A stretch of 64,000 bases of DNA from an uncultured Myxococcales bacterium (lineage in GTDB: Bacteria; Myxococcota_A; UBA9042): positions 25,943-89,942 of the forward strand of contig CAJBNH010000183.1 in assembly GCA_903955385.1 (NCBI GenBank), read 5' to 3'. The notes under the pieces are model-generated. The model saw only the letters and a list, made by a program, of their open reading frames with translations. It was not told the DNA's origin and made no database searches. Shown here piece by piece: positions 6,806 to 61,231 of the stretch. The first letter of the stretch is position 1, and each line of letters starts with the position of its first letter. The translations under genes and the position numbers were made by a program.

Positions 6806-6834
6806 TTGATCGTCTGCCGCCCGGGACGTAGCCT
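6806..6834 (+). promoter_or_regulatory. Putative promoter for the ankyrin/RCC1 gene
   Basis: TTGATC (6806-6811), 17-bp spacer, TAGCCT (6829-6834). The predicted start near 6841 gives a leader of about 70 nt to the ATG at 6911, which is preceded by GGGAGGG. Confidence 0.45.
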
Positions 6835-6910
6835 GTTGGGGTCATTTGGCGTGGTCGTTCCGCAGCTTGCGCGTCCGGCCACACGCGTTGTGCCATTCCG
6901 GGGAGGGCCC

Positions 6911-8839
6911 ATGCCAGGTCGCGAGACCCGCGTGTTGCTTCAGTTCGCGGTCGTCGTGTGCGCCGTTGCGTTGGTTCGGTTGCCGAGCGCAAGGGCCGCT
7001 GCTACCGAGATCGACGAGCACGTCGTCTATGAGTTCTTCGATGCGGTGAAGGACGGCGACGTCGCCACGGCAAAGCCGCTGCTCGCCAAGTATCGCAAGC
7101 TCGTGCAGCTCAAGACGGATTTTGACCAGACCGCAACGCACGTCGCTGCCAGTGCCGGCAACGCAGAGATGATGAAGCTGCTGCTGTCCAAGGGAGCGGA
7201 CCCCAACGCGCTGGACGAGTACGGCAAGCCGCCCATCCTGTATTCGGTCGCACAGGCGGACCTGGAGGTGTCGCGCGCGCTGCTGGCCAAGGGAGCCAAG
7301 CTGGTCGGTCCAGCGCGTACGGCTCTGGCGCTGGCGGTGCAGGTCGACTCGCCCCCGCTGATCGGTCTGCTGCTGGCCAAGGGCGCCGCGCCCAACCAGA
7401 CCGACGACGAGGGGTGGACGCCGCTGCATCACGCCGCTTGGGACGGCAAGGCGCCGGCGGTGATGGCGCTGTTGCAGTCGCCGAAGATCGACACCAATGC
7501 CCAGGACTTGGGCGGGGTAACGCCGTTGATGCTTGCCGTGCAGGCCAGTCGGCGCGTGGGGGCAACCTTTCTGACACCCATCCGAGCCATGCTTGCCAAG
7601 GGTGCCCGACCAGAGCTGGCCGCCCAAACCGGGGTGACTGCGGCGCGCATCGTGCTGGCGATGCGGTTGCGCGACGTGGCGCCGCTGTTGGGGACCGCGA
7701 TGGGCAAGTCGCCGCCGACCGATCCGCCGCCAGCCTTGGCCGCGCAGGAAGTCGCGACGGGCGTTGCCCACGGCTGCCTGAGGCTCAGCGACTCGACCGC
7801 TGCGTGCTGGGGCGGCAACGCCTTTCGTCAGGCCGGGCCCTTCGAGGCCAACGTCCTCGACACGCCCGAGGCCGTGCCGGGTCTGGTCGGTGTGGCACAG
7901 GTCGTGACGGGCGGTTTCCACAGCTGTGCCCGTCTCGAGCACGGCCGCGTCGCCTGCTGGGGCAACAACGAGCAGGGGCAGCTGGGTACGGGCAAGCAGT
8001 CGCGTCACATCGCCATGCCGTTCCTGGTGCCGAATGTGACTGACGTGGTCGAGCTGGCCGCCGGTCGCGCCTTCACGTGCGCGCGCACGGCCGCGGGAGA
8101 AGTGAAGTGCTGGGGCGACAGCAGGGCCGGCCAGTGCGGCGTGCCTGAGACCGAAGCCGTGCTGGAGCCCCATCAGGTGCCCAGCGTGTTCAACGCGACG
8201 CTGCTGAGTGCCGGGACGTGGCACGCCTGTGCCGTGCTGGGCAGCGGCAAGACGGTGTGCTGGGGCGACAACAGCCGCGGACAGCTGGGCGAGCCGATGA
8301 TCGAGTCGTCGGCGGCCCCAGTGACCGTTCCCGCCATCGGCGCCGCCAAGGAGCTGGCGTTGGGCGACCGCCACAGCTGCGTGCGCACCGACGACGACAC
8401 GGTCCGCTGTTGGGGCGACAACACCATGGGCCAGGCCGGCTCAGGGAGGCCAGTTCCGCGCTCAGACCGCATGGCAGGCATCACCTCGGTCGTACCGGCG
8501 CCGACTCGAGTCGACGGCTTGGGCAAGGTCGAGGGGTTGTCGGCCGGCGGCGGACATACTTGCGCCCTGAAAGCAGGGGCCGTCTGGTGTTGGGGAGGCT
8601 ACGGCGGCAACGACGCCCGTGCCCCGCAGTCGTCGCCGTGGGTCCAGCACCCTGCCAACGCCAAGGCCATCCGTGTCGGCGGCGTGTTTGCCTGCGCGCT
8701 TACGACGACCGACGCGCAGCCTCTGTGCTGGGGTGCCGAGGGTTCGCTGGGCCTTGGCTTGCAGGGAGAGCGGATTCAGTACGAGCCGACGCCGATGAAG
8801 GTGTGGTTCGTGCGGCCCGAGCCCGTTCCCGACCCGTAG
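6911..8839 (+). CDS. Exported ankyrin-repeat plus RCC1-repeat protein
   Basis: 642 residues from the ATG at 6911 (GGAGG-type ribosome site 5-10 nt upstream). A Sec signal peptide ends near residue 35 (small-residue site after PSARA). Ankyrin repeats cover about 40-275, with TATHVAASAGNAEMMKLLLS and GWTPLHHAAWDGKAP as the clearest copies. From about residue 280 to the end come at least six RCC1/BLIP-II blades of the form H-x-C-A-x-x-x-x-G-x-V-x-C-W-G-x-N-x-x-G-Q-L-G, each with a Cys pair that could form disulfides in the periplasm. Both modules are protein-binding scaffolds. No catalytic residues are seen, and partners and role are unknown. Its stop codon abuts the stop codon of the convergent methyltransferase gene (TAG/CTA at 8837-8842). 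Confidence 0.85.
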   Translation: MPGRETRVLLQFAVVVCAVALVRLPSARAAATEIDEHVVYEFFDAVKDGDVATAKPLLAKYRKLVQLKTDFDQTATHVAASAGNAEMMKLLLSKGADPNALDEYGKPPILYSVAQADLEVSRALLAKGAKLVGPARTALALAVQVDSPPLIGLLLAKGAAPNQTDDEGWTPLHHAAWDGKAPAVMALLQSPKIDTNAQDLGGVTPLMLAVQASRRVGATFLTPIRAMLAKGARPELAAQTGVTAARIVLAMRLRDVAPLLGTAMGKSPPTDPPPALAAQEVATGVAHGCLRLSDSTAACWGGNAFRQAGPFEANVLDTPEAVPGLVGVAQVVTGGFHSCARLEHGRVACWGNNEQGQLGTGKQSRHIAMPFLVPNVTDVVELAAGRAFTCARTAAGEVKCWGDSRAGQCGVPETEAVLEPHQVPSVFNATLLSAGTWHACAVLGSGKTVCWGDNSRGQLGEPMIESSAAPVTVPAIGAAKELALGDRHSCVRTDDDTVRCWGDNTMGQAGSGRPVPRSDRMAGITSVVPAPTRVDGLGKVEGLSAGGGHTCALKAGAVWCWGGYGGNDARAPQSSPWVQHPANAKAIRVGGVFACALTTTDAQPLCWGAEGSLGLGLQGERIQYEPTPMKVWFVRPEPVPDP

Positions 8840-10267
8840 CTATTGCACGCCCACGTACCAGGCATACATCGCGACGGCGGCCGCGACGGCGGCGTTCAGC
8901 GACTCGCTGCCCGCTTCCATGGGGATGGCGACGGCTTCGCCCCGCAGCTCTGGCGGCAGGCCTGCGCCCTCCAGACCCGGCAGCAGCAGGAAGTCGTCCG
9001 GGAAAGCGAACTGCTTGAGCGGACTTCCCTCTGCCGACAAGAGCACCCGCTGCCCCTCTGTGGCGGCAGCGACCTCGGCCAGCGAGCCCGCCTTCCACAA
9101 GCGCAGCCGAAACGCGGCGGTTCCCCCCGCACGCAGCGCTTTGGGGTGGAAGGGCGAGGCGGCCTCCTTCAGCAGCACGACCTCGCGCACGCCGAAGGCC
9201 GCGGCGGAACGCAGCACTGCGCCTACGTTCTCGGGGTCCTGGAACGGCACAGCCAACGTGCAGCCTTCCAGCGTTCCCGGCCACGCCTGCGGCTCGTCGA
9301 CCTGCAGCACCAGCAGCGGCGCCGAGGTGCCGAACACGTCCAGCTCGCGAAACAGACCGGGGGCCAGGACGGCGACGGGCAGGTCGGGCGGGGCCTCCTC
9401 AGGCACCATCTCGAGTCCTCGCGGCACCAGCAGTTCATGGCAACGCTGTGGAAAGTCGCGCAGCGCCTCGGGAACCGTCTTCTGCCCCGACAGCAGCGCC
9501 AGACCCGACTTGCGCACGCCACGGCCGGTCAGCAGCCCCTTCCACGTCTTGAACGACTCGTTGGCCTCGCTGTCGATGGGGCGGGTCCGCCGTCGCACGA
9601 GTTCGCTCAAGTCCTCCAGCCGGCGAAACGTGACCAGCCGTCGCTCATGGGTCGAAAACGGCAGTGCATACGCGATGTCGTCCTCCAGACGCCAGGAGCG
9701 GCCAAAGTCGCGCGCGGCCTCGGCGATCTCGTCGTCGCAGTGCGGCCCCTTCATGAAGATCGCCAGGCCACCGGGCGGGACGAACGCGCGAACCCGGGCC
9801 AGCGTCACCGGAATCTTCTCGAGCGCGCGCGTAATTACGCCCTGCACCGGGTGTGGAAACGACGAGAACGTCTTGCCGCAGAACGTCTGAATGCCCCTCA
9901 GTCCCGCGGCGGTGATGGCCTCGTCCATGAAGTCGACGCGGCGGGCGCGCCCCTCGGACAGCACGACCTGGACCTGCGGCGCGGCGATCTTCAGCGGAAT
10001 GCCGGGAAAACCCGCGCCCGATCCAATGTCGAGCAGCGGCGACGGCAGCTTGGCCCCCAGCTTGCGCGCGACAAGGATGCAGTCGACGTAGTGCAGGGTG
10101 ACCATGGACGCAAACGACCGCAGCCGGGTCAGATCTCCGTCGGCGTTTCGGTCGCGCAGCAGCTGGTGATACGTCCAGAGCTGCCGAAGCGCGTCGGGCT
10201 CGAGACCGGCACCGCTGGCCTCGAGCATCTGTCCGAAGCCCTCGAAGGTAGGCGAGAATCGCGTCAT
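8840..10267 (-). CDS. RsmG-type 16S rRNA methyltransferase fused to a SpoU/TrmH-family RNA methyltransferase
   Basis: 475 residues, about twice the length of RsmG. Residues 1-215 are RsmG (GidB): the SAM-binding loop DIGSGAGFPG at 80-89, then VDFMDEAI and ITRALEK. RsmG makes m7G527 in 16S rRNA. Residues about 240-475 are a SPOUT domain with the three SpoU motifs: DPENVGAVLRS (345-354, the Asn-x-Gly-x-x-x-Arg signature), GLEGAGLP (431-438) and IPM...SESLNAAVA (448-462), which form the trefoil-knot SAM site and 2'-O-methylate ribose in rRNA or tRNA. The frame is continuous with no frameshift sign. The ATG at 10267 overlaps the terC stop as ATGA, so translation is probably coupled. The target of the SPOUT half is unknown. 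Confidence 0.9.
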   Translation of the reverse strand: MTRFSPTFEGFGQMLEASGAGLEPDALRQLWTYHQLLRDRNADGDLTRLRSFASMVTLHYVDCILVARKLGAKLPSPLLDIGSGAGFPGIPLKIAAPQVQVVLSEGRARRVDFMDEAITAAGLRGIQTFCGKTFSSFPHPVQGVITRALEKIPVTLARVRAFVPPGGLAIFMKGPHCDDEIAEAARDFGRSWRLEDDIAYALPFSTHERRLVTFRRLEDLSELVRRRTRPIDSEANESFKTWKGLLTGRGVRKSGLALLSGQKTVPEALRDFPQRCHELLVPRGLEMVPEEAPPDLPVAVLAPGLFRELDVFGTSAPLLVLQVDEPQAWPGTLEGCTLAVPFQDPENVGAVLRSAAAFGVREVVLLKEAASPFHPKALRAGGTAAFRLRLWKAGSLAEVAAATEGQRVLLSAEGSPLKQFAFPDDFLLLPGLEGAGLPPELRGEAVAIPMEAGSESLNAAVAAAVAMYAWYVGVQ

Positions 10268-11247
10268 GGGGCAGGTTCCGCGGCAGGTGGCGTGGGGGGG
10301 CGGGTCAGGACGGAAGCGAGGATGCCGACGCCGAGGATCAGTCCGATCACGCCCAGCGAGACGGCCGGCGGGATGTGCACCCACTCTGTGATCAGCATCT
10401 TGACGCCGATGAAGGCGAGCAGCACGACCAGACTGGCCTTGAGGTAGCGGAACAGCACGATGAGGCCGGCCAGCGCAAAGTACAGCGACCGCAGGCCCAG
10501 GATGGCGAACACGTTGGACGTGAAGACCAGAAAGGGATCGCTGGTGATGGCGAAGACGGCGGGTATCGAGTCCACGGCGAACACCACATCGGTCGTCTCG
10601 ATCATCAACAGCACCAGCATCAAGGGCGTCATCGCGCGGCGGCCATCGGGCAGGCGAGTCAGGAACTTGTGCCCTTCAAAATCGGCGGTCACCGGGTAGA
10701 GCTTGCGGGCAAACCGCAGCACCTTGCTGTTCTGAATGTCGAAGTGGTCGTCCTTCTGGAACGCCATCTTCAGCGCCGTGATCAGCAGGATGCCGCCGAA
10801 CACGTACATCATCCAGGCAAACCGGTTCAGCAGCACGGCGCCGGCACCGATCATCACGCCGCGCAAGACCAGGGCACCCAGGATGCCCCAGAACAGCACG
10901 CGGTGCTGGAACTGCCGCGGCACGCGAAAAGTGCCGATGATGAGGGCGATGACGAAGATGTTATCGACGCTGAGCGAGTACTCCACGACGTAGCCGGTCA
11001 GGAACAGCATCGAGGCGTCCAGACCCGACAGGGTCTCACCCGTCTGCAGGCCGAAGCCACCGATGTGATGCTCGTAGAGGAAGTAGATGACGACGTCGAA
11101 CGCCAGCGACACCGTGATCCACAGCGCAGTCCAGCGAAGCGACTCGCGAAACCCGATGACGTGGTCCTTGCGGTTGAAGACGCCGAGGTCCAGGGCCAGA
11201 AACCCCATGATGAGCAGGATGAACAGGGTCCAGATCAGGACTTGCAT
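10264..11247 (-). CDS. TerC-family integral membrane protein
   Basis: 327 residues with about eight to nine hydrophobic helices. Family signatures are visible: DLGVFNRKDHVIGFRESL near the N-terminus, EYSLSVDNIFVIALI, and IETTDVVFAVDSIPAVFAIT, with the paired Asp residues that probably bind metal. TerC/Alx proteins are linked to manganese export, pH stress and metalation of exported proteins. The ATG at 11247 begins the first membrane helix, and the family does not extend upstream, although the reading frame stays open for 3 kb antisense to other genes. It is the first gene of a two-gene unit: its TGA overlaps the start of the downstream rRNA methyltransferase. Confidence 0.92.
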   Translation of the reverse strand: MQVLIWTLFILLIMGFLALDLGVFNRKDHVIGFRESLRWTALWITVSLAFDVVIYFLYEHHIGGFGLQTGETLSGLDASMLFLTGYVVEYSLSVDNIFVIALIIGTFRVPRQFQHRVLFWGILGALVLRGVMIGAGAVLLNRFAWMMYVFGGILLITALKMAFQKDDHFDIQNSKVLRFARKLYPVTADFEGHKFLTRLPDGRRAMTPLMLVLLMIETTDVVFAVDSIPAVFAITSDPFLVFTSNVFAILGLRSLYFALAGLIVLFRYLKASLVVLLAFIGVKMLITEWVHIPPAVSLGVIGLILGVGILASVLTRPPTPPAAEPAP

Positions 11248-11436: not shown

Positions 11437-11475
11437 TCGCTTTCTCCCACCACGCCTTGCCTGCTGAGGAAGACC

Positions 11476-13149
11476 ATGACCTGCACCCGTCGACGCTCGC
11501 TGTTCGCCTTGACCCTTGCGGCCGCCGCTTGGACCTTTGCGGCGTGCGGCGCCCCTCCAGCCCCGGTCGCTCGTCCGCCCCTCGGTGAGCCCGGTGGTGT
11601 CTACGAGACCACGTGCACTGCTCTGCGTTCCGAGCACGCCCGCGAGCTGGCTGAGAAGCGCTATGTGCCGACCGGTCTTCTGATTCATGCCTGGCCGGGA
11701 GCCGCCGCCGCCCACTTGGGCATCGTGAAGTCCGAGCTCGATGTCGTTCCCGGTCTGCTGGAGCCCGCCCCCGCCGGTACGCAGCTGCGCATCGCCTTGG
11801 TGCTGGCCCGCGGAGGCGCAGGCAAGTCCAAGCTCGCGTGGTCGATCGCCGCGCAGGCGTGCGCCAAGGTTCCTGTGTTCCGCGTGGATCTGGCCACCGA
11901 GATCGCGCCCCGCGTCGAGTCCGAAGGCAAGGTCGCGCTGGCCTATCGCATCGCCCGCGAGGTCGGTCTGGCTACCCCCGAGACCGCCGAGGACGTGCTG
12001 AAGCGCGCGCTGGGCGACCGACCGTGGCTGGTGATCGCCGACTCGCTGGACGAGGTGCCGCTGCTGCAGCGTCAGGCCGTGGCCGCGCAGCTGGATGATC
12101 TGGTCACGCGCATCGCACCGAAGGCCCGCGTGGTCGTGTTCACTCGCCCGCCCGTCTTCACCAGCAACTACGGCCTGCAGAGCGTGGATGTGCGCGTCGA
12201 GATTCCGCAGATGTCGTGCGCCGAGAGTGACGATGCCATCGCGCACACGGTGGCCGAGGGTAAGGATCGCAAGGCTTTCGACGAATTCGTCAAGCGTTAC
12301 AGGCTGGACCGGCAGGTCACGGCGTATGGCCGCTGCTACTATCCGCACCTTGCGACTTGGCGTGACATTCAGGTGGTCGACCGGCTGGTGCGCAACACCG
12401 TCGCCGTCCAAGGCGCCGAGATCGCCGGATTCACCGCGGGAAGGGCGCAGATCTACACGTATTTCATGACCGCCCAGCTGGTCCGCGACATGCAGGGGGT
12501 CGAGGTGCTGCCTGCAGACGCTTTGGCCGCCGTGGACCGCATGGTCACCGCGCAGAACCCCGAAAACGGCGAACGCAACCTGCCGTTTGCCCTGCACCAA
12601 TGCGTTGCCGCGCTGCCCGGCATCGACACCGGCGTCGCGCAGGTCACCTGCGAGCGGCTGCTGCAGTCGTCGTTGTTCCGCGCAGGCCACGAGGTCGGCG
12701 TCTGGCACTTCGACAACCAGAGCTTGGGTGACCTGTTCCTGGCGCGCTGGGCGGCGACGGCGCTGGACAACGGTGGCCGTGCCGACTGCACCCGCGTGAC
12801 CAAGCTGGCGACCATGCTCGAGTCGAATGAGGTGGCGGGCTTTCTGGTCGGTCAGGCGAACGGGCAGCAGTGCCTGGGCATGATCGCCAAGGAACTGTGC
12901 CACCGCGGCGGGTTCGCGCAGCACGTCTACGAGCAGCTGGACCAAGGGCTGCCGACCGGCATGTCGCGCGCCATTCTCTTGCGCGATGCCATCGAACAGC
13001 TCGAAGGCCTGCCGAATGACCTCTGCACGACGCAGCTGCTCGAGCAGCTGGGCCAAGGTCTGCCGGAACCGCCGCCTCGCGAAGCGCCGCCCCCCGCGCC
13101 CGAGCCGCCCGCGAAGAAGAAGGTCAAGGGCAAGGCCAAGACCAAGTAG
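11476..13149 (+). CDS. Lipoprotein with a NACHT-like (STAND) P-loop NTPase domain
   Basis: 557 residues. The N-terminus has three Arg, a Leu/Ala core and lipobox FAAC with Cys24, so by sequence it should be exported and lipidated. Yet residues 105-260 look like an NTPase: Walker A ARGGAGKS (111-118), Walker B LVIADSLDE (185-193) with the NACHT-typical D-small-x-D-E pattern, and a sensor-like VVVFTRPP with Arg224. The region after about 260 is alpha-helical, and the tail (about 530-557) is Pro-rich followed by a Lys-rich end. Cys at 129, 248 and others could be structural. ATP is not expected in the periplasm, so either the NTPase uses an unusual location or ligand, or the export signal misleads. 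No effector domain is seen at the N-terminus. AHSA1 and moeB genes follow at 18 and 30 nt, so it may head an operon. Confidence 0.75.
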   Translation: MTCTRRRSLFALTLAAAAWTFAACGAPPAPVARPPLGEPGGVYETTCTALRSEHARELAEKRYVPTGLLIHAWPGAAAAHLGIVKSELDVVPGLLEPAPAGTQLRIALVLARGGAGKSKLAWSIAAQACAKVPVFRVDLATEIAPRVESEGKVALAYRIAREVGLATPETAEDVLKRALGDRPWLVIADSLDEVPLLQRQAVAAQLDDLVTRIAPKARVVVFTRPPVFTSNYGLQSVDVRVEIPQMSCAESDDAIAHTVAEGKDRKAFDEFVKRYRLDRQVTAYGRCYYPHLATWRDIQVVDRLVRNTVAVQGAEIAGFTAGRAQIYTYFMTAQLVRDMQGVEVLPADALAAVDRMVTAQNPENGERNLPFALHQCVAALPGIDTGVAQVTCERLLQSSLFRAGHEVGVWHFDNQSLGDLFLARWAATALDNGGRADCTRVTKLATMLESNEVAGFLVGQANGQQCLGMIAKELCHRGGFAQHVYEQLDQGLPTGMSRAILLRDAIEQLEGLPNDLCTTQLLEQLGQGLPEPPPREAPPPAPEPPAKKKVKGKAKTK

Positions 13150-13167: not shown

Positions 13168-13593
13168 ATGGCCTCCTCCAACCTCGTTCTTCGCTTCGAG
13201 CTGCCCGCCTCGGCTGAGCGCGTGTTCGACCTGTTCACCCGCGGGGAGCAGCTGACCACGTGGTTCTGCGACCAGGCCGACAGCGACGTCCAGCCCGGCG
13301 GTCGGCTGGTGGCCACCTGGCAGGATGAAGACGGCGAGACTTGGGTGCGCAGAGGCACTTGGGTCGAGCTGGAGGCTCCCGGCTTTGCCCGCCTGGTCTG
13401 GGACGCAGAGGAAGGTTCCGCCGACGAGTGGCAGTTCGGCATCGCCGCGTGCGAGGGTGGCTGTCGCGTGACCGTCGTCAGCCCCGTGCTGCCCCACGCG
13501 AATCTGCCGAACGACGTGCGTCAGGACGCGGTGCGCCAAGGGTGGGAGCGCACGTTCGCCGCCCTGGACCAGCTGTTGCGGATCGAGGCCTAG
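13168..13593 (+). CDS. AHSA1-type SRPBCC domain protein
   Basis: 141 residues, a single helix-grip fold. Typical family features are VFDLFTRGEQLTTWFCDQA near the start (the conserved Trp in the W-x-x-x-D/A region), PGGRLVATWQDEDG in the middle and GWERTFAALDQLL at the C-terminus (the G-W-x-x-x-L motif). Proteins of this family bind hydrophobic ligands; a few act with Hsp90, but most bacterial members are uncharacterised. It lies 18 nt after the NACHT-like lipoprotein and 30 nt before moeB on the same strand. No signal peptide, so it should be cytoplasmic. Confidence 0.85.
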   Translation: MASSNLVLRFELPASAERVFDLFTRGEQLTTWFCDQADSDVQPGGRLVATWQDEDGETWVRRGTWVELEAPGFARLVWDAEEGSADEWQFGIAACEGGCRVTVVSPVLPHANLPNDVRQDAVRQGWERTFAALDQLLRIEA

Positions 13594-13623: not shown

Positions 13624-14781
13624 ATGCCTCTGCCTCCCAACACCCCGGACCCGCAGCGTTCTCGCACGGCCGAGATCTCGCCCAGCGAGGTGCACGCCAA
13701 GCTGCGCGCGGCGGTTCCCTTCGTGCTGATCGACGTTCGTGAGCGACACGAATACGCAGAGGGTGTGCTGCCTTCCGCCCTGCTGACCGGTCGGGCGGCG
13801 CTGTCGCAGCGACTGGCAGAGGTCGCTCCGGCCGGCAACACCGACATCGTGCTGTACTGCGCGGCCGGCGTGCGCTCTCTCTACGCCGCGTTCGAGTTGT
13901 GGGAGCTTGGCTATACAAATGTAAAGTCCATGGCGGGTGGCTTTCAAGGCTGGCGGGCGCTGGGACTGCCTGTGGAAGGGGCGAGTGGGCTGTCGCAGGA
14001 GCAGACGACCCGCTATAGCCGCCACTTGCGAATGCCTGAGATCGGCGTGGCCGGGCAGCAGAAGTTGCTGGACGCCAAGGTCTTGGTGGTCGGTGCGGGC
14101 GGGCTGGGCAGCCCCGCCGCGCTTTACCTTGCGGCGGCGGGAATCGGGACGCTGGGCATCGCCGACGACGACGTGGTGGACCTGTCGAACCTGCAACGAC
14201 AGATCCTGCATCGCCAGGACCGCATCGGGCAGCCCAAGGTCGACAGCGCGGCGCAGACGCTTGCGTCGGTCAATCCCGAAGTGAAGGTGGTGCGGCATCC
14301 ACTGCGCGTGGACGCGGGCAATGCCTTGGATCTGCTGCGGGACTACGATGTCGTGATCGACGGCAGCGACAACTTCCCGACCCGCTACTTGGTCAACGAC
14401 GCCTGCTTTGCGTTGGGCAAGCCCCACGTCCACGGCTCAGTCTTCCGGTTCGACGGGCAAGTGACCGTGTTTGCGCCGGGGCGGGGACCCTGCTACCGCT
14501 GCCTGTATGCCGCGCCGCCCCCGCCAGAAGCTGCGCCCTCCTGCGATGTGGCGGGCGTGTTGGGCGTGCTGCCGGGCATCATCGGCACCCTGCAGGCGCT
14601 GGAGGCGCTGAAGCTGGTGCTGGGCCTCGGCGAGCCTCTGGTCGGCCGGCTGCTGGCGTTCGACGCGCTGCAGATGCGGTTTCACGAGCTGACGGTGCGG
14701 GCCGACCCGGGCTGCCCGCTATGCGGAACCCACCCGACGATGCAGGGCTTGGGCGAGGTCGGGGCGTCCTGCCGCGTGTGA
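13624..14781 (+). CDS. moeB: Rhodanese-MoeB/ThiF fusion (sulfur-carrier adenylyltransferase)
   Basis: 385 residues. A rhodanese domain (about 18-118) with active-site loop CAAGVRS, Cys79, precedes an E1-like ThiF/MoeB domain (about 125-385): ATP loop GAGGLGSP (157-164), DDDVVDLSNLQRQ (181-193) and IDGSDNFPTRYL. Four zinc Cys are visible in CYRC (290, 293) and CPLC (364, 367), and a further conserved Cys at 307. MoeB adenylates the C-terminal Gly of MoaD (or ThiS-like carriers); the attached rhodanese can supply persulfide sulfur. The rhodanese is at the N-terminus here, whereas in eukaryotic MOCS3/Uba4 it is C-terminal. A mog gene for molybdenum cofactor lies 6 kb away, but no other moa/moe genes are in view. 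Confidence 0.92.
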   Translation: MPLPPNTPDPQRSRTAEISPSEVHAKLRAAVPFVLIDVRERHEYAEGVLPSALLTGRAALSQRLAEVAPAGNTDIVLYCAAGVRSLYAAFELWELGYTNVKSMAGGFQGWRALGLPVEGASGLSQEQTTRYSRHLRMPEIGVAGQQKLLDAKVLVVGAGGLGSPAALYLAAAGIGTLGIADDDVVDLSNLQRQILHRQDRIGQPKVDSAAQTLASVNPEVKVVRHPLRVDAGNALDLLRDYDVVIDGSDNFPTRYLVNDACFALGKPHVHGSVFRFDGQVTVFAPGRGPCYRCLYAAPPPPEAAPSCDVAGVLGVLPGIIGTLQALEALKLVLGLGEPLVGRLLAFDALQMRFHELTVRADPGCPLCGTHPTMQGLGEVGASCRV

Positions 14782-35375: not shown

Positions 35376-38054
35376 TCAGAGGCTGCTTTCGAAGTACAGC
35401 GCATCAGGAGCCACGCACCCCTGCCGCCCGTTGGGCAGCCGCACTTCGACGCGACCGTCCGGCAGCTCGGCGATGCGGCGCACCTCCAGCCCCTCCGGCA
35501 GTCCCATCGCCTCGCCGACACCCAGACACGGCGCCATCGAGGCGTCTTCTTCCACGACCACGGCGTGGACCACCTGAGCTTCCACCCGCTGGGCGTGGGC
35601 CAACCAGACCAGAGCGAGCACTTGAATGACGGCGAGGCCCGCCGCGCTGCCGACCAGAGCAGTCCTGCGACCCAACCGAGCACCCGAGCGCAACCCCCAG
35701 ACCAGCAGCGCAAGTGCGGCGAATCCCCCAAGCGCGCCTAGCGCGGCCAGCAGCCCCCGCGGAGCCGCACGTGCGATGGCCACATCCAACTCTGGACTTT
35801 CGTCGAAGATGTGCAGGGTTGCGTGACGTCTGCGGGCTTGATCCGCCAGTTGACTTCGCACCGCGGCAAGGTTGCTGGTGACATCGCTGCGCAGCTCAGT
35901 CGGCGGATTCAGCCGCAGCGCCTGCTTGTAGTGGCCGACCGCCTCGCCCAAGCGATGCATTTTGACCAGAGTATTCGCTAGGTTGTAGTGGATGGCCGGC
36001 GATGGCAGCCCGTGGATCAACAGCGCCCGGTAACTTTGCTGCGCTCGCGCATACTTCCCCTGCACGTAGTCCTGATTGGCCGCTGCGAACGAGTCGTCCA
36101 GCGTCGCGGCGTCCGCTTGTCCCGGCAGCCATCCGGTCACCGCCGCAGCAGCGCAAACCATGAGGACCGTCGCGGCCGCTCGTCCGGTCGAGGACTTGGT
36201 CGGTGTCAGAACGGGGTCCAGCTTCGCCAGCACTTCGGCCACGCGGCGCGCCGTCTGCGCCAGATCCACGTCGCGGTCGCCACCAGGAGCGAATCTTGCG
36301 AAATCACAGTGTTGCAACTCAACGGTGAGCTGGTCGGCGGTCTCTCGATCTGCCCCGGCTGCCCGAAGCTCAGCTGCCAACGCGTGCTCGGTCATGCCGG
36401 AAAGGGGCGTGCCGGTCGCAGTCGCCAGGTACTTGGCCACGGTGTCGCGCACGGCCGCATAGCCTTGGTCCGGCCCCAATCCCGCCGCCAGATCCAGCTG
36501 TTGACGGGCGTCGCGCAACGCGTGGGCGCGCGTCCGCTGCGGCGACTGCTGCAACCGTCGGCGCCGCCACACGCTGGCCAACCATACGAGCAAACCGGCG
36601 CCCCAGGGCGCGAAGGCAATCCCCCAGAAGGTCGGCGTCGCGGTCCAATCGCTGACGGCAGTTTGCGCGATGTGGGCCTCGGCAGCGATCGGGCGCAGCA
36701 AGGCCGATGCGTCGACGACGGCGGTGACGGGCTGCGCCGGACCCTCTCCGGGCTGCAGGCCGGTAGCACCGGCAGCGGCCGACGCGGGAGTCTCAGCGCC
36801 CGGGACCGCAGCGCCCGTGACCAGCACCTCAAACGGACCTGCGCGGGAGGTTGCAAACCTCTCGTCGTACGGGTCAAACGCGGTAAACTCCAGCGCCGGA
36901 ATCACGTAAGTGCCTGGCTTGTTGAACGAAACGATGGTCTGCCAGACCCGCTTGCCCTCGGTTCCCGCAAGCGTCCGCCGCACCTGATCGTCGCCACGCC
37001 CGGGCAGTGCCTCGATCGACATGCCCGCGACGGCAGGCGGGCGCAGGTCGCGCAGGCCCAGCAGATTGCCCTCGCCACTGACCTGATACTCGATCAAAAG
37101 ACGAGCTCCCGTAGCCACTTGCAGCGTGTCGCCCCGCCCCGGCGTCATCACCCGTCCGGTCAGTTCCAGCTTGCCCACGTTGGCCGCTGCGAAGCTGGCC
37201 GGCCGTCCTGCCGTGGGTATCGGCCGGAAGGTCATCTCCAGCGCGGGTCCCGACACCCGCAGCGCACGCGTCTCGAAGAAATCGCCTGCTTCGATCCGGT
37301 AGCGCGGGCCGTCGATCCGGACCTGACCGGGCACCGCAGACGACAGCATCGCTTGGTGCGTGATCTGGCGCAGGTACGGACGACCTGAGAATTGCACGGC
37401 TTCCCGGTCAGGTTCCTTGCCGCCCAGCAGGTTCTCCACGTCGAGGTTGGCAAACTTGGGCGCCTGCGTTTCGCGGATCCCCTGAGTCTGCGTCTCGCGG
37501 CTCCAGTACAGCTCCCACGTGATGACAAACGGCTGTCCGGCAAAGGGCGCCAGCACCGACACCGATGGGCGCACGAAGAAGGCCTGACCGGCGAAGCGCT
37601 GCGGATTGGTCGCCTTCTCCGGCGGTTCCGCGGCCTCATCCTCTCCGCCCAGCGAGACCACCTCGACCTCGATCACCTCCGACTTCGCAACATCGCGGCC
37701 CTGTAGCCGCAGCACTGCGGGCCCGATCCGCAGCTTGCCCGGCCGCTGCGGCCGCGCGACGTACATCTGGTTCTCGATGGTCGACATGCGGCCGTTGATG
37801 ATGCTGACCTGCTGCTGTCGCCCGCCCTGCTGCAGGTCGAAGCCGTCGCAGGTGGGGTCCAGCATCTCGTCGAACTGGCCGGTCGCCTGCACGCGGATCT
37901 GCAGTTCCTCGTCCACCGTGAGACTGCGCGCGCCCACCTCAATCCGCACCTGCGCCTGCTGGGCATTGGCGTCGTTCGCCGCGCACACCCCCACCCCCAC
38001 GGTCCACGCGACCGTCGTGGCGAGAGCAAGGCGTGCGAAGCGGGCGTCCATCAC
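35376..38054 (-). CDS. batD: BatD/BatE fusion protein of the aerotolerance operon
   Basis: 892 residues. The GTG at 38054 overlaps the previous TGA, with an ATG next codon. A signal peptide ends near NAQ (about 31). Residues 35-430 are BatD beta-sandwich repeats (VRIEVGARSLTVDEELQIRV, then ITWELYWSRETQTQ). A membrane helix (about 475-500) is followed by a cytoplasmic helical domain. A second hydrophobic segment (about 625-650) is followed by BatE-like TPRs (FAAANQDYVQGKYARAQQSY, IHYNLANTLVKMHRLGEAV). Two more helices and a C-terminal SH3-like domain follow (NGRQGCVAPDALYFESSL). BatD and BatE are usually separate; here one chain does both. This is the last gene of the operon. Confidence 0.9.
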   Translation of the reverse strand: MMDARFARLALATTVAWTVGVGVCAANDANAQQAQVRIEVGARSLTVDEELQIRVQATGQFDEMLDPTCDGFDLQQGGRQQQVSIINGRMSTIENQMYVARPQRPGKLRIGPAVLRLQGRDVAKSEVIEVEVVSLGGEDEAAEPPEKATNPQRFAGQAFFVRPSVSVLAPFAGQPFVITWELYWSRETQTQGIRETQAPKFANLDVENLLGGKEPDREAVQFSGRPYLRQITHQAMLSSAVPGQVRIDGPRYRIEAGDFFETRALRVSGPALEMTFRPIPTAGRPASFAAANVGKLELTGRVMTPGRGDTLQVATGARLLIEYQVSGEGNLLGLRDLRPPAVAGMSIEALPGRGDDQVRRTLAGTEGKRVWQTIVSFNKPGTYVIPALEFTAFDPYDERFATSRAGPFEVLVTGAAVPGAETPASAAAGATGLQPGEGPAQPVTAVVDASALLRPIAAEAHIAQTAVSDWTATPTFWGIAFAPWGAGLLVWLASVWRRRRLQQSPQRTRAHALRDARQQLDLAAGLGPDQGYAAVRDTVAKYLATATGTPLSGMTEHALAAELRAAGADRETADQLTVELQHCDFARFAPGGDRDVDLAQTARRVAEVLAKLDPVLTPTKSSTGRAAATVLMVCAAAAVTGWLPGQADAATLDDSFAAANQDYVQGKYARAQQSYRALLIHGLPSPAIHYNLANTLVKMHRLGEAVGHYKQALRLNPPTELRSDVTSNLAAVRSQLADQARRRHATLHIFDESPELDVAIARAAPRGLLAALGALGGFAALALLVWGLRSGARLGRRTALVGSAAGLAVIQVLALVWLAHAQRVEAQVVHAVVVEEDASMAPCLGVGEAMGLPEGLEVRRIAELPDGRVEVRLPNGRQGCVAPDALYFESSL

Positions 38055-41000
38055 CAGTCCTTGGCGGGGGCCGTGTTGCGAAACTGTGAATTCCGCAACG
38101 CTTCCTGGGCTTCCAGGTTGTCCGGGTTGTGGTCGTTGCGGTCCATCTGCTGGTGGGTCCGCTCCTGCTCCTCTTTCTTGGGATCAGGCTTCTGGTCCTT
38201 CTCCTCGGGGGGGGGCTGGCCCTTGTCCTTCTTGTCCTGATCCTTCTTGTCTTTGTCGTCCTTGTCCTTGTCGTCCTTCTTGTCGTTCTGGTCCTGCTTC
38301 TGCTGCTGATCTTCGCTCGGCGGCTGCGGTTCATCCACCCGCAGTAGGTAGAAGTTCTCAACGTCTGCGCCCGCTTGCGTCCGGACCTTGAGGATTCGGT
38401 CGGTCTTGCCACCCGGCACCGCGGCTGCGGTCGTGGCCGTGCGGCCCTTGCGCGCTTGCGGCGTGTCGTCGATCGACGCCGGTCCCGCCTTCTTCCCGCC
38501 CGGGGCCGTGACGACACCCTTGGCGATCGACTTGGCGCCGGCCTCGTCCATGACCTCCATCTCCAGCGGACCGTGCGACAGGTCATAACGGGCGGAGATC
38601 TGTAGATTCTGTCCCGCCTTCTGCGTCACCTGCATCCAGTCGCGGTCGCCCTTGCAGATCCGCAGCAGCTGCTCTTGGCCCAGCTCAATCGGCTTGGCCG
38701 CACCCGGCTCGTCGTTCGGCTCGAATTCGTCGTTTCCATCGGGACATGGCGGCAGGATCCGCAGCTTCAGCACGTACGGCAGGTCCAAGCGGGCCACCGC
38801 GGGGTCCACGGCTGGCGACGGCAGGCCCGGCGGCAAGATGACGTGCGGCACCGGGGCACCGGGCGGCGGGGGCCCTCCGGCTCCCGGCATCATGCCGGCG
38901 CCAGGTCCGGCACTGCCACCGGGCGCGGCTCCCGGACTGCCACCCGGCGCAAAACCCGGCATGGCGGGAAGACCTTGCGGCATCTGCACTTGCACCGTCT
39001 GGACTTGCGGCGGCTGTTGTCCCGGCCCCGGACCCGGAGGCGGCACACCTGGTGCGGCACCGGGGGGAAGTCCCTGCGGCCCTTGCGGGTCAGGCGACGC
39101 CGGTGCGATCTGCACGGAACCCGGCGGCAGCGTCGGCAACGGCCACGTGGGCTTGGCGACTCCACCGCCGGTCACCCGCACCCGGTACTTGCCGGGGGGA
39201 GGAGCCAGCACCGCCGTCGTCCTCGCGACCTCACCGCCGCCCGAGACGGCACTGCCGATGGCTTGGCCCCACAGCTCGCCACGTTCGTCGTACACCTCGA
39301 CCGTCAGCGAACCGGCAAGGTCCTGCGCATCCGGCAGGTCCTCTACCTGGCTGGTCAGGTCCACGAACAGACTCTCGCCCTGCTTCAGCTCGACCTGATA
39401 CCAATCGTCGTCGCCCGGGCACAGGTACAGACCCTGCATCGGCGCGGAGAAGTTCTCGGGTGTCAGGGGGTTGGCCTGTACGGCCTGATCGTTGTCCTCG
39501 TAGACGTCGTCCCGCTCGCTGCACGGGGGCAGGATCTCCAGCGCGAGTTCGTAGTCGGCTTCCGTGTCCAGACCACCTTGAATTTGAACGACATATGCGC
39601 CTGTGGTGACGGCAGAGGCCAGTCGCGCGACCATGCCCTCCTTGCCCTGACGCGCGCGGGCCACCACCTGACCGTTCGGGTCCAGCACCGTGATGTCCAC
39701 CTGGTTGGCGCCGATGTCGACGGTGGTCTTGGCGCGGATGCGCAACCCCTGACCGCTGCTCAGCAACACGGAGTAGTTGTCGTCGTTCAGCGGGCACAGG
39801 CGGCCCTTGACCGGCTCGCCGACCGGCGCGGACCGTGCCGCAGCCGGTGCGTCATTCGGCTCGAACTTGTCCTCGATGCGATGGCAAGCCGGCAGCAGCT
39901 TGACCTTCAGCTCATAGGCGCTCTCGACTTCAGCGATGTTGCGCACGTCGACCAGCACCTGCTCGGCGTGGTCCACTCGCCCGAGATCGACCGCGTCCAG
40001 CGGCGGCGCTCCGGCGGCCGGTCCCCGCAGCTGTTCCTGGCCGTTGCTGTTCAGCAGCGTCAGGCCGAGCTGCGCCGGCGAGCCTGCGGCGCCGTCCTCT
40101 TGCTGCGCCTCGGCCGAGGTGTCCGCCTTGGGAGCGATCTTGGCGCTGAAGCGGTCGCCGGGCTGCAGGTCCATGCGGAACAGGTCGCGGTCCTCAGGAC
40201 ACGAGCGCAGATCCAGCGTCTGCTCGCGCTGTCCTTCCGGCATGGCCACGGGAGTCGCCTGATCCACCTGATCATTTGGCTCGTACGCCTTGTCGCGGGT
40301 GCGGCACGACGGCCAGGCGCCCAAGCGAGCGATCTCCAGGTTGCGCCGCGTGTCGAGCCGCGTCGGGTCGGCGACAAGGGCCAGCTCCAAACTCTTGACC
40401 GCCTCTCGGTAGTGCGCCAGCGCCTGTGCGGCGCTCGGAGGCGCAGGAGCCGTCTGCGGTGCGTTCGGATCGGAACCTGCGCCACCCGCAGCACCGGGTG
40501 CCGAGCCTTGGGCAGGTGTTGTGCCGGGAGCGGAGCCTGCGCCCGGAGCCTTTCCCGGTCCCGGGTTGGGCTTCGGCGCGGCGGCCGCCTGCTTCTCGAG
40601 CTTGCGCGCCCACTCCAGCTGGTTGGTCCCGGTCGCGTAGTGGATGTCGGCCTCGAGGGTCGGCTCTCGCGTCCGCAGCCCTCCCAGCGCGCGGTTCAGA
40701 CTGGTCGCGGCGTCTTCGTTCAGGCCCATGTACGCTTGTGCGACGCCAAGATTGAACCAGATCACCACGTGTTCCGGGCGACTGGCCTGCGCTGCGCGGA
40801 ACGCCTCGACGGCGTCGCCCAGCTTGCCTTCCTTCAGCAGTTCGCGGCCGTCGGCGATGTCCGGATTCTCGCGTTGCAGCCACGCGGGCACTGCCAGGGC
40901 CTGCGATGGTGCGAAGATGCCAAGCGTCAGCGCAACAAACACCAGCGCGATCGCCGCCTTGACGGGACTGGCTGCCGGACTCGCCTTGACACGTGCTGCG

Positions 41001-42070
41001 TCGCGCTTTCGCCGCCTGCGGTTGGAGAGGGCCGCATCGATCAGCAGCAGCAGCAGCGCCGGTCCCAGCAGGTACTGGTAGCGGTCTTCACCGAGAGCCT
41101 GAAATTGCGCTGTGTATTCAGCCTTTTCGAGTGCATCCAGCGCGGCCGCCAGAGGTTGCGCAACGGACCGGTCGGCGTAGTGGAACGACTTGCCCCCCGT
41201 CGCAGCCGCCACCTTCTCCAGCAGCGGCAGATCCAGCTTGGAGAAGATCGGTTGCCCCGCCTCGTCCTTCAGAATGCCGGTCGCCGTGCCATCGGGGCCC
41301 AGAATCGGCACCGGGTCGCCAAACGCGGAGCCCACGCCGACCGTGTAGATGCGGATGCCCTGCGCGGCGGCCTTCTGCGCGGCCTCCAGCGCACCACCTT
41401 CGTGGTCCTCGCCGTCGCTGAACAACACGATCGCCTTGTGCTTGCTGCCCTTGAACTGAGGCATCAGGTTGTCGCGCAACTCGGCTTCAGCCTTCTCTTT
41501 CTCGCCGGTCAGCACCTCGACGGCCAGCGTGATGGCCCTGCCCACATTGGTGCCGCCGACCGGCAGGTCTTCGGGCTTGAGGTCCGCCAGATACGTGCGG
41601 ATGACGTCGTGGTCGGTGGTGAGCGGCGCCTGCACGAACGGGATGCCGGCAAACGGCACCAACGCGACGCGACCGCCTGCCAGCCGGTCGAGCAGGCTCG
41701 AAATCTCCAGCATTGTCCCTTGGATGCGGTTCGGCACCACATCGCGCACCAGCATGGACTTCGAGGCGTCGACGACGATGGCCAGATCGATACCTGCGTT
41801 CGACACCTCCGTCTCGCGCAAGCCATAACGGGGGCGAGACGCGGCGCCCACCAGCAGCACCAGCGCCAGGCCGATCAGTCCGATGCGCAACGCCGCGACG
41901 CCGGGCGAGAAGGAAGCCATCAGCCGCTTCACCGCCGCGCCGGTACCCAGTCGCGCGAGAAGCTTGTGCCGTCCGCTGTGCTGTGCCGCCGCCCAAATGA
42001 CCAGCACCGCCACCAGCAGCAGCAGCCAGGCCAAATCGGCTCGCGCAAAGGTCAAGGCATCCGCTTGCAT
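38051..42070 (-). CDS. batB: Giant BatB/BatC fusion: VWA, TPR and four EPND (pre-peptidase C-like) repeats
   Basis: 1339 residues, three to four times a normal BatB. It has N-terminal membrane helices (about 12-28 and 60-78), then a VWA domain with MIDAS DASKS (Asp101, Ser103, Ser105), GGTN and FSDGEDHEGG. A helix near 335-350 and another at 372-392 precede TPRs (about 400-480; HVVIWFNLGVAQAYMGLNED). A Pro/Ala/Gly linker follows, then four beta-rich units each opening C-x-x-x-x-D-x-x-EPND/EDND-x-x-x-x-A (around residues 597, 734, 856, 1115). Such EPND units are the signature of PPC-type domains. The C-terminus has a Lys/Asp-rich low-complexity run (about 1255-1300) and ends with a BatC-like tail finishing in KDW. 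The frame is continuous. EPND units in BatB are new to me. Confidence 0.88.
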   Translation of the reverse strand: MQADALTFARADLAWLLLLVAVLVIWAAAQHSGRHKLLARLGTGAAVKRLMASFSPGVAALRIGLIGLALVLLVGAASRPRYGLRETEVSNAGIDLAIVVDASKSMLVRDVVPNRIQGTMLEISSLLDRLAGGRVALVPFAGIPFVQAPLTTDHDVIRTYLADLKPEDLPVGGTNVGRAITLAVEVLTGEKEKAEAELRDNLMPQFKGSKHKAIVLFSDGEDHEGGALEAAQKAAAQGIRIYTVGVGSAFGDPVPILGPDGTATGILKDEAGQPIFSKLDLPLLEKVAAATGGKSFHYADRSVAQPLAAALDALEKAEYTAQFQALGEDRYQYLLGPALLLLLIDAALSNRRRRKRDAARVKASPAASPVKAAIALVFVALTLGIFAPSQALAVPAWLQRENPDIADGRELLKEGKLGDAVEAFRAAQASRPEHVVIWFNLGVAQAYMGLNEDAATSLNRALGGLRTREPTLEADIHYATGTNQLEWARKLEKQAAAAPKPNPGPGKAPGAGSAPGTTPAQGSAPGAAGGAGSDPNAPQTAPAPPSAAQALAHYREAVKSLELALVADPTRLDTRRNLEIARLGAWPSCRTRDKAYEPNDQVDQATPVAMPEGQREQTLDLRSCPEDRDLFRMDLQPGDRFSAKIAPKADTSAEAQQEDGAAGSPAQLGLTLLNSNGQEQLRGPAAGAPPLDAVDLGRVDHAEQVLVDVRNIAEVESAYELKVKLLPACHRIEDKFEPNDAPAAARSAPVGEPVKGRLCPLNDDNYSVLLSSGQGLRIRAKTTVDIGANQVDITVLDPNGQVVARARQGKEGMVARLASAVTTGAYVVQIQGGLDTEADYELALEILPPCSERDDVYEDNDQAVQANPLTPENFSAPMQGLYLCPGDDDWYQVELKQGESLFVDLTSQVEDLPDAQDLAGSLTVEVYDERGELWGQAIGSAVSGGGEVARTTAVLAPPPGKYRVRVTGGGVAKPTWPLPTLPPGSVQIAPASPDPQGPQGLPPGAAPGVPPPGPGPGQQPPQVQTVQVQMPQGLPAMPGFAPGGSPGAAPGGSAGPGAGMMPGAGGPPPPGAPVPHVILPPGLPSPAVDPAVARLDLPYVLKLRILPPCPDGNDEFEPNDEPGAAKPIELGQEQLLRICKGDRDWMQVTQKAGQNLQISARYDLSHGPLEMEVMDEAGAKSIAKGVVTAPGGKKAGPASIDDTPQARKGRTATTAAAVPGGKTDRILKVRTQAGADVENFYLLRVDEPQPPSEDQQQKQDQNDKKDDKDKDDKDKKDQDKKDKGQPPPEEKDQKPDPKKEEQERTHQQMDRNDHNPDNLEAQEALRNSQFRNTAPAKDW

Positions 42071-59072: not shown

Positions 59073-61112
59073 CTAGTGGACCGGTGACCCCGGCGGCACT
59101 TCCCGCGCCGGCGACATCGGCGTGCGTCCACCGCGACCGTCTTCCGCCACCAGCAGCATCCCGTGGCTCTGCAGCCCCATCATCGTGCGGGGCGGCAGGT
59201 TCGCCAGCACCAGCACCTGACGGTCCTTCAACACCTCAGGCGCGACCGACTCGGCGATGCCGGCGAGGATCTGCCGGGGCTCCGCCTCGCCCAAGTCGAC
59301 CAACAGCCGCAACAACTTCTTGCTTTTGGGGATCGGCTCGGCCAGCACCACGCGCCCCACACGCAGATCGACCTTGCCGAACGCGTCGATGTCGATCGCC
59401 TCGGCGAACGGCGGCGGGGGCTCGAGGGGCTGCTCCGGCGCAACGACCTGTGGAGAAGTCGGCTCGGTCGCCGCGGCAGTCGGCGGCTCCACGACAAAAT
59501 TCGCCTTGGGGAACATGGGGGTGCCTTCGCTCAGCGGCGCACCGGCGGGAAGGTCGCCCCAGCGCAGGTCGTTCAGGGATCGCCAGCCGCCGGTCCAACC
59601 GATGCGGCGCAGGATCTCGGCCGACGTCCGCGGCAGCACCGGCTCCAGCAGGTGTGCGGCAAAACGGATGCCTTCCAAGGCGTTGTACAGCGTCACGGCT
59701 GCGGCGTCCTTGTCCGTCTTGACCAGATGGAAGGGCGCGTCGGCCGTCAGCACGCCGTTGAGCCGCTGCACCAACCCCATCGTGTCGGCGACGGCCTTGT
59801 GGATCCGTAACTGCGCCAGGCTCTCCCGCAGGGGGCCCGCATCGCCGAACTGTCCGTCGTTCGCGGGGGTTCCGTCGACCAGATAGCGACCGTAGGCGAT
59901 GGCAGCAGCCAGCGCCGGGCTATGGGCGCGGTCGGCGGGCGGGGTCGGCACCTTGCCGTCGAAGTGCTTGATCGCCAAGGCCATCACGCGCTGAACCAGG
60001 TTGCCGAGGTCGTTGGCCAGATCGGCGTTGTTGCGCCGGACCAGCGCCTCCTCGCTGAAGTTCGAGTCCTGGCCCACCGCCATTTCGCGCAGCAGGAAGT
60101 ACCGCAGCACGTCCGAGCCGTACTTGTCCTTCATCGAAAGCGGGCTCACCACATTGCCGGAAGTCTTGGACATCTTGGCATTGTCGGTGAGCCACCACCC
60201 CGTCGTCACCAGCCGATGCGGCACCGGCAGACCCAGCGCCATCAGCATCGTGGGCCAATACACGGCGTGGGTCGTCAGGATGTCCTTGCCCAGAAAGTGG
60301 GTGACGTGGGGCCACCAGGCCTCGAACGAGGTTGCGCCGTCCAGCCCCGGTGCCGGTGTGTTGCCGTCGCCGGTCGGCGGAAGCGCGCCCAACCCTCCGA
60401 TCGCCGTGACGTAATTCAGCAGTGCGTCGAACCACACGTAAGTGACGTAATCGGTGTCGAAGGGCAGGTCGATGCCCCATTTCAGGCGCTCCTTGGGGCG
60501 CGAGATGCACAGATCCTGCAGGGGCTCGCGCAGGAAGCCCAGCACCTCGTTGGCGCGGTTGGCGGGCACAATCTCCATGCGGCCGCTGCGGATAGCCTCG
60601 ATCAGCTGGTTCTGGTAGCGGCTCATCAGGAAGAAGTAGTTCTTCTCAGCCAGACGGGACACGGCGCGACCGCAGTCCGGGCACTGGCCTTCCTTGAGGT
60701 CCTTTTCGGTCCAGAAGCGCTCGTCGGCCGTGCAGTACCAGCCCTCGAAGGTGCGGGCGACGATGAGGTCCTGATCCCACAGCTGTTGCAGCGCCCGCTG
60801 GACCACGGCCTTGTGCCGGGGCTCAGTCGTGCGGATGAACTGGTCCGGCGCAGCGTCCAACGTCGGCCACAGGTCCTTGAAGGCCTGATGCAATTCGTCG
60901 CAGTGGGCCTGGGGCTCGATGCCGCGCTTGGCGGCCGCCTGCTCGACCTTCTGACCGTGCTCATCGGTGCCGGTGACGAAGTAGGTCGGCTGCCCCATCA
61001 GGCGGTGGTATCGGCGCGCGGCATCGGCGAGAACGGTGCAGTAGGCGTGGCCGATGTGCGGGCGATCATTGACGTAGTAGATGGGCGTGGTGACGTAGAA
61101 GCGGTCGGACAT
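59073..61112 (-). CDS. metG: Methionyl-tRNA synthetase
   Basis: 679 residues from ATG 61112; the 31 residues upstream in frame are Pro-rich and lie in the promoter region. HIGH is in RPHIGHAYCT, the KMSKS loop is KMSKTSGN, and the zinc knuckle has one visible pair (CPDCGRAV). The anticodon domain follows (about 380-530), and a C-terminal tRNA-binding domain of the Arc1p/Trbp111 type (about 580-679: DLRVGRVVLAEPIPKSKKLL, then LPPRTMMGLQSHGMLL). It charges initiator and elongator tRNA-Met. A Pro-rich linker separates the C-terminal domain. Confidence 0.97.
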   Translation of the reverse strand: MSDRFYVTTPIYYVNDRPHIGHAYCTVLADAARRYHRLMGQPTYFVTGTDEHGQKVEQAAAKRGIEPQAHCDELHQAFKDLWPTLDAAPDQFIRTTEPRHKAVVQRALQQLWDQDLIVARTFEGWYCTADERFWTEKDLKEGQCPDCGRAVSRLAEKNYFFLMSRYQNQLIEAIRSGRMEIVPANRANEVLGFLREPLQDLCISRPKERLKWGIDLPFDTDYVTYVWFDALLNYVTAIGGLGALPPTGDGNTPAPGLDGATSFEAWWPHVTHFLGKDILTTHAVYWPTMLMALGLPVPHRLVTTGWWLTDNAKMSKTSGNVVSPLSMKDKYGSDVLRYFLLREMAVGQDSNFSEEALVRRNNADLANDLGNLVQRVMALAIKHFDGKVPTPPADRAHSPALAAAIAYGRYLVDGTPANDGQFGDAGPLRESLAQLRIHKAVADTMGLVQRLNGVLTADAPFHLVKTDKDAAAVTLYNALEGIRFAAHLLEPVLPRTSAEILRRIGWTGGWRSLNDLRWGDLPAGAPLSEGTPMFPKANFVVEPPTAAATEPTSPQVVAPEQPLEPPPPFAEAIDIDAFGKVDLRVGRVVLAEPIPKSKKLLRLLVDLGEAEPRQILAGIAESVAPEVLKDRQVLVLANLPPRTMMGLQSHGMLLVAEDGRGGRTPMSPAREVPPGSPVH

Positions 61113-61157
61113 GTCGGCTCCGGCAGGGTCCGCGGCGACGGGCGGCGGGGCGGGCGG

Positions 61158-61186: not shown

Positions 61187-61231
61187 GCCGCACGCCTTCC
61201 GACACCGTTGGCGTGAGCCGTCGGCGAAATG

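Follow-up and report, generated by a model that had tools for sequence, protein, structure and literature searches.

A predicted exported lipoprotein family with a NACHT-type NTPase core in Myxococcota and its candidate nucleotide-exchanger partner

Introduction

In the usual view, STAND/NACHT switches operate in the cytoplasm and the periplasm lacks ATP; free ATP is taken to be scarce in the cell envelope. TorsinA, an ATPase of the AAA+ class in an oxidizing compartment (the lumen of the eukaryotic endoplasmic reticulum), belongs to a family different from that of the protein described here. Here, we analyze a gene at positions 11476–13149 (forward strand) of a 64,000-nucleotide stretch of DNA (the window; contig CAJBNH010000183.1) from an uncultured Myxococcales bacterium. 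We predict that its product is a complete NACHT core, which after export would be stabilized by disulfides and held in the envelope by a lipid anchor. There it would act as a nucleotide-dependent switch, probably fed by an inner-membrane exchanger. We regard this reading as a whole, which draws on the sequence and a predicted model, as an even call. Export and fold are well supported by sequence and model; what we infer is nucleotide binding and hydrolysis, the face (periplasmic or outer) at which the protein sits, its supply, and its output.

The only precedent that we met for a periplasmic NACHT is target 2 of the diversity-generating retroelement (DGR) 3 of Thiohalocapsa PB-PSB1, whose NACHT domain was predicted to be periplasmic. 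That target is a DGR-diversified C-type lectin, and the available part of the source describes no lipoprotein family with paired cysteines (PMC10907252). Exported NACHT lipoprotein families are likewise not described in the available parts of PMC7159879 and of PMC4452313, which reports NACHT and TPR domains in a SecA protein. None appeared in the titles and abstract openings among the matches listed in a literature search whose scope lay outside subscription journals and preprints. For the candidate partner, the closest described proteins are the NTT-HEAT-cNBD fusions. The available part of their description states that how the fused domains work together is unknown, does not characterize the fusions functionally, and draws no link to an exported NTPase (PMC5381601).

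Predicted fold of the window protein

The gene and its product have the following features.

11466–11470, forward strand: Shine–Dalgarno-like GAGGA, 5 bases upstream of the ATG at 11476, from sequence
11476–13149, forward strand: open reading frame (ORF) of 557 residues, predicted exported NACHT-core lipoprotein gene
11476–11544, forward strand: predicted signal peptide, residues 1–23, from sequence
11545–11547, forward strand: lipobox Cys24, followed by Gly at position +2
11806–11829, forward strand: Walker A ARGGAGKS, residues 111–118
12028–12054, forward strand: Walker B LVIADSLDE, residues 185–193
12145–12150, forward strand: sensor-1-like R224–P225, within FTRPP
12334–12345, forward strand: C287-Y-Y-P290 in helical domain 1 (HD1)
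12715–12717, forward strand: N414 in the winged-helix domain (WHD), presumed site of the NLR winged-helix His
13093–13146, forward strand: Pro/Lys-rich C-terminal tail

The ORF with its signal peptide and lipobox, the Walker A motif, the NACHT-type Walker B motif, and the sensor-like Arg had all been named in a sequence-only reading of this DNA, and all were found again in the translation. That reading did not include the HD1–WHD–HD2 remainder of the core, the cysteine pattern, the paralogues, or the nucleotide-exchanger-like partner. Its proposal of a NACHT-type NTPase was confirmed at the level of the fold by the predicted model, which has a P-loop fold at the expected place and strongly matches NLR cores over its full length (nucleotide-binding domain [NBD]–HD1–WHD–HD2), the core filling model residues 32–532 of 557. 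The matched NACHT cores of NLRC4 (4kxf), NLRP3 (7alv), and NOD2 (5irm) share 13–14% identity with the window protein. The protein has these marks of the STAND/NACHT clade, namely the Walker A Lys with Walker B and the sensor-1 Arg, together with HD1 and the winged helix at the level of the predicted model. R224, after the fourth strand, presumably plays the role of the sensor-1 Arg, and N414 is likely at the position of the nucleotide-contacting His of the NLR WHD, which we take to be so placed from the familiar motif.

Unlike NLRs, the window protein has neither an effector domain nor leucine-rich repeats, and the tripartite layout of NLR, Avs, and bNACHT proteins is absent, with no N-terminal effector and no C-terminal repeat sensor found in the model or by Pfam. 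The family further differs from the NLR core in its export signal, its ten near-invariant cysteines, and the residue at the presumed site of the WHD His, which is Asn here and either Asp or His in some paralogues. In sequence searches, the window protein had no NCBIfam match and, at E up to 1, no match to Pfam NACHT. When the family profile was run against the PDB, only nine weak matches resulted (E 0.25–0.95), none of them a NACHT protein, and the best match in a viral structure library (E 1.3e-9; TM-scores 0.29 and 0.22) was uninformative. A defense-system reading was considered and rejected, as no PADLOC model matches the window protein.

Extent of the family

Of 89 genomes searched, 25 contain the family, namely all 22 genomes of the window's own taxonomic family (2–6 matches each), G026 and G051 of the same class, and G045 with one weak match. 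With a wider profile, for which at most five candidates were scored per genome, 51 of 282 genomes of the phylum were matched. Full-length members again occurred in the same 22 genomes, G026, and G051, and G270 had fragments; elsewhere, only the NBD region was matched (E 4e-13 to 5e-6). Bacterial NACHT/STAND proteins (bNACHT, Avs; nSTAND) of other Myxococcota are thus homologous in sequence to the family in the NBD, but their frames are larger (675–1567 residues), a length as in ordinary STAND proteins.

The window genome has two family copies, the second at 36% identity, and family matches share 26–54% identity with the window protein. The closest named record is a 99% identical hypothetical protein of a Myxococcota metagenome-assembled genome. 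Conservation was analyzed in two sets: A1, an alignment of 59 of 78 database proteins (19 were left out, P0039 and P0044 among them), and a wider set of 83 sequences; 82 family ORFs carry Walker A. The two sets overlap (18 pairs found) and are not independent. Nine of the 59 A1 members match Pfam NACHT at E up to 0.1 (best 1.5e-5), and one member, P0018, carries the PF05729 annotation in the database. A profile search of a large protein database gave the same 77 proteins again with A1 and seven with the sister clade A2; such searches score about 8000 word-sharing candidates, a scope too narrow to judge the spread past Myxococcota.

Export signal

In the leader (MTCTRRRSLFALTLAAAAWTFAAC), a basic n-region is followed by a hydrophobic stretch that ends in FAAC, with the lipobox Cys at position 24. 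The lipobox is conserved beyond chance, since 67 of the 82 Walker A-bearing family ORFs pass a strict lipobox and hydrophobicity rule. Thirteen of the 15 that fail have a hydrophobic stretch and a Cys by eye; what made the rule miss them was a residue that the pattern did not cover, a polar residue, or, in L061, a Walker pattern matched at the wrong place. L027 is truncated by the end of its contig, and the full-length version (P0075) carries the lipobox. L024 (G051) keeps the NTPase but no lipobox Cys; its leader ends in an AxA-like motif, apparently a signal peptidase I cleavage site, and it is likely a soluble periplasmic form. The gene of this form (L024/L103, G051:C102) lies directly 3′ of an NTT-HEAT-cNBD gene. 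Cys24 is invariant in A1, and after trimming at the chosen Cys, 79 of the 83 sequences have Cys in this column, the exceptions being L017 and L018 (trimming), L024, and L027.

The sequence-only reading had called for a survey of homologues for a conserved lipobox together with the Walker motifs. Both are kept, and L024 alone among the 82 keeps the NTPase without a lipobox, its leader still being present. That no homologue would keep the NTPase and lack the lipobox is borne out less cleanly, as two of the 78 database proteins, P0039 and P0044, start past the leader; they may be truncated, have mis-called starts, or be real leaderless forms. Of the two placements that the earlier reading had offered, export is favored and inward anchoring is not, because of the near-invariance of the ten cysteines and their pairwise behavior.

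In another reading, the NTPase would stay in the cytoplasm, tethered to the inner membrane by an N-terminal helix that is not cleaved and only happens to resemble a lipobox leader. This would accord with the normally cytoplasmic life of STAND proteins, the presence of ATP there, and the two leaderless records. We consider it very unlikely in view of the basic n-region with its conserved lipobox Cys, the homologue whose leader lacks that Cys (L024), and the paired pattern of the ten near-invariant cysteines. Six ordinary NACHT proteins from related genomes (eight loci fetched) also point away from it: the 130 residues that precede their P-loop contain no leader, and the comparable stretch holds 2–9 cysteines. 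This control is weak, as it covers those stretches and not the true N-termini.

Sec export is likelier than Tat, because most homologues lack an RRx-hydrophobic match. The Tat candidate (RRSLF here), which would mean a folded and nucleotide-loaded cargo, was rejected; a loose match was found in 6 of the 59 A1 members, the window protein included. In neither count (67 and 59 sequences) did Asp occur at the +2 position of the lipobox. By the usual rule, a +2 residue other than Asp points to the outer membrane, which is therefore the likelier anchor site as judged from the leader, on its periplasmic or surface face.

Conservation of the cysteines and the NTPase site

Besides the lipobox, ten cysteine columns are kept in 81–83 of the 83 sequences. 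The cysteine number is ten in 73 sequences, eleven in seven, eight in two, and six in one, and A1 behaves alike (ten in 52/59, eleven in six, and nine in one). A split of four cysteines before residue 341 and six after it is found in 73/83 and 52/59 sequences. C248 and C287 are absent together in L065, L082, and P0077, and the five distinct proteins without C475 (P0003, P0005, P0012, P0019 [= L009], and P0040) have a Cys about five residues downstream of its position. Pairwise loss and local relocation fit disulfides, an assignment that rests on co-loss and parity. The 4+6 split would put the pairs within each rigid half of the NLR-like core and leave the hinge free, so that the disulfides are probably within each half with none across the hinge. 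The window genome encodes VKOR.

Conserved cysteines alone are no proof of disulfides, and they could instead bind metal or serve redox regulation of a cytoplasmic enzyme. This appears highly improbable, as they form no CxxC cluster but stand one by one along a span of about 470 residues (47 to 517), and their losses and shifts are those expected of disulfides.

The NTPase site is conserved to the same degree. In A1, G114, G116, K117, D189, E193, and R224 are invariant (n = 59), as is C24; in the wider set, G114, G116, D189, and R224 are kept in 83/83, and K117 and E193 in 82. The N414 column of the wider set contains N in 37, D in 20, and H in 15 sequences, and P290 is Pro in 57/59 A1 members versus 62/83. 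The C-terminal tail is often basic, the last 25 residues having a net charge of at least +5 in 30 of the 59 A1 members. With conservation of the site equal to that of the cysteines, the exported protein likely still binds nucleotide.

A different fate for the exported core would be a scaffold, a rigid disulfide-locked binding module in the envelope that has lost nucleotide cycling. The poorly energized compartment, the capacity of disulfides to lock a fold, and a copy without Walker A (L091) speak for it. We hold it to be improbable, because the Walker A Lys, the Walker B Asp and Glu, and R224 are kept in 82–83 of 83 sequences despite 26–54% identity, like the cysteines themselves, and because the 4+6 pattern does not suggest a lock across the hinge.

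Genomic association with an NTT-HEAT-cNBD protein

In paralogue loci of subfamily B, one or two NTPase genes stand in a run with those for a 640-residue exported barrel-like protein, a 320-residue lipoprotein-like protein, and an 850-residue lipoprotein-like protein, joined in some loci by a 1068-residue membrane protein. Such envelope runs were seen in L108 (7201–14404) and L102 (714–12912), the latter with NTT-HEAT-cNBD. The 640-residue protein is barrel-like in its C-terminus by appearance only, and the 850-residue protein shows a weak similarity, below cut-off, to VolA/Pla-1 phospholipases. The barrel-like neighbor is unspecific: at E up to 1e-10, 41 of 52 genomes match it, and in the window genome the contig that carries it has no NTPase gene. 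The NCBIfam model closest to it, ImpL63, scores far below cut-off and bears the name of a cytoplasmic membrane protein. TldD/PmbA, alpha-amylase-type enzymes, CT_A_B carboxyltransferase, GGDEF, PP2C, and rotamase recur beside parts of the family only.

The 1068-residue protein (L102's copy) has HEAT and cNMP-binding domains. In G006, G007, G010, and G016, its exchanger-like membrane domain scores above the cut-off of Pfam TLC; in one scan of four membrane domains, two passed. Against six single-domain TLC proteins, the membrane domain aligned with 99.7% probability over 385 columns. The model of the window genome's copy (pLDDT 82.3) has AtNTT1 and Chlamydia pneumoniae NTT1 as its four best PDB matches. 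The partner thus combines an NTT fold, HEAT, and cNBD, the architecture of the known fusions, and its nucleotide transport is a prediction.

At E < 1e-60, a cut that was chosen after the list had been seen, the exchanger-like gene occurs in 22 of the 24 NTPase-bearing genomes versus 1 of the 46 others (70 genomes searched). The two genes lie 10 kilobases or less apart in 9 of 22 genomes, where 0.30 would be expected at random positions; these figures are descriptive, as the genomes are related and their independence is overstated. In G051, one of the nine and a genome of another taxonomic family, the genes are adjacent, and in G026, outside the 9/22 count, exchanger-matching stretches flank the NTPase near a contig end.

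Since NTT carriers are exchangers, the direction of transport bears on a further reading, in which the exported NACHT protein senses external nucleotide at the outer surface or in the periplasm, such as ATP or dNTPs spilled by lysed prey, phage-killed neighbors, or the cell itself. The NTT partner would then be unrelated or would recover nucleotides inward. The same export, fold, and cysteine evidence suits this reading, an exchanger may run in either direction, contigs with a window-clade member never carried an exchanger-like gene, and ATP release by bacteria is on record (PMC11335348, in the part available). The recurrent linkage with an inner-membrane exchanger-like gene favors supply from within, and we grant external sensing a small yet real chance.

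Proposed mechanism

Here, we propose a mechanism for the lipid-anchored switch fed from within. The protein is predicted to be exported by Sec and lipid-attached at Cys24, and to fold as NBD–HD1–WHD–HD2 in the manner of NLRC4 and NLRP3, as the strong match of the model indicates. Disulfides would form inside each half and not across the hinge, as the 4+6 pattern and pairwise loss suggest, so that a nucleotide-driven rotation of the halves stays possible. Nucleotide would be bound and hydrolyzed outside the cytoplasm by the conserved site residues. The NTT-HEAT-cNBD protein may supply the nucleotide, as its co-occurrence, linkage, and fold suggest. Because there is no effector domain, the output would be exerted on envelope partners, plausibly via the WHD–HD2 half or the basic tail.

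Several observations, in addition to the chosen cut and the relatedness of the genomes, weigh against this mechanism. The best Pfam match of the window protein, AAA_16 at 19.1 bits (cut-off 32.6), is below cut-off, as it is for every family. The two database proteins that start after the leader lack the export signal as recorded. DsbB was searched for in the window genome and not found. L091 (G008:C67), the sole exception to the conserved site, has a degenerate Walker A and has lost the C-terminus with the C-terminal cysteines; it is possibly a decaying gene. The exchanger-like domains of the window genome and G004 fail the Pfam TLC cut-off. In the window genome, the exchanger-like gene is on a separate contig, and contig sharing, absent from the window clade, is seen in 4 of 5 members of the sister clade A2. 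Relatives of NTT-HEAT-cNBD also occur without the NTPase, closely in G039 and more weakly in ten other genomes (E 1e-10 or better, a level reached in 33 of the 70 genomes in all).

A larger picture can be put forward tentatively, as a possibility that we would not bet on. A whole NACHT switch system would reside in the envelope, where the NTT exchanger feeds periplasmic ATP and the oxidized, lipid-anchored cores cycle and signal to, or remodel, outer-membrane partners.

Neighborhood of the window gene

The genes around the NTPase gene are as follows.

10264–11247, reverse strand: divergent neighbor, presumably a TerC-like membrane protein (a name given from the look of the sequence, not from a family search), also present in some relatives
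13168–13593, forward strand: AHSA1/SRPBCC protein (Pfam AHSA1, 6.1e-18)
13624–14781, forward strand: rhodanese-ThiF (MoeB/MoeZ-like) protein (Pfam ThiF, 1.8e-87; Rhodanese, 1.7e-15)

The AHSA1 and rhodanese-ThiF genes begin 18 and 30 bases, respectively, past the preceding stops. Among the orthologue loci (L001, L003–L016, and L021), AHSA1 lies downstream on the same strand in 16/16 and rhodanese-ThiF in 12/16, and the sister clade A2 has AHSA1 in 0/5 loci. The sequence-only reading suggested that both genes share the transcript of the NTPase gene; the conserved order agrees with this, and the shared transcript itself is a plausible prediction, with no mechanistic link evident.

Elsewhere in the window, a frame at 6806–8839 (forward strand; likely start near 6911) encodes an ankyrin-repeat and RCC1-repeat protein with a signal peptide apparent by eye, which seems to be another usually intracellular fold that is exported. 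Large proteins with Dictyostelium-type CTDC repeats are encoded at 59922–63272 (forward strand) and in locus L070 (9502–13878, reverse strand); the L070 protein has BLAST relatives in several NTPase loci, perhaps merely from abundance. At 35376–42070 (reverse strand), a BatD-like frame (892 residues) lies beside a von Willebrand A frame (1339 residues), resembling a Bat-type cluster.

Biological implications

If the larger picture is true, the family would represent an ATP-powered STAND machine outside the cytoplasm. A family that combines intact NTPase motifs, an export signal, disulfide-like cysteines, and a tie to an exchanger-like gene makes testable both the cytoplasmic confinement of STAND/NACHT switches and the lack of ATP in the periplasm. 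It would also offer a candidate job for the widespread, uncharacterized NTT-HEAT-cNBD fusions.
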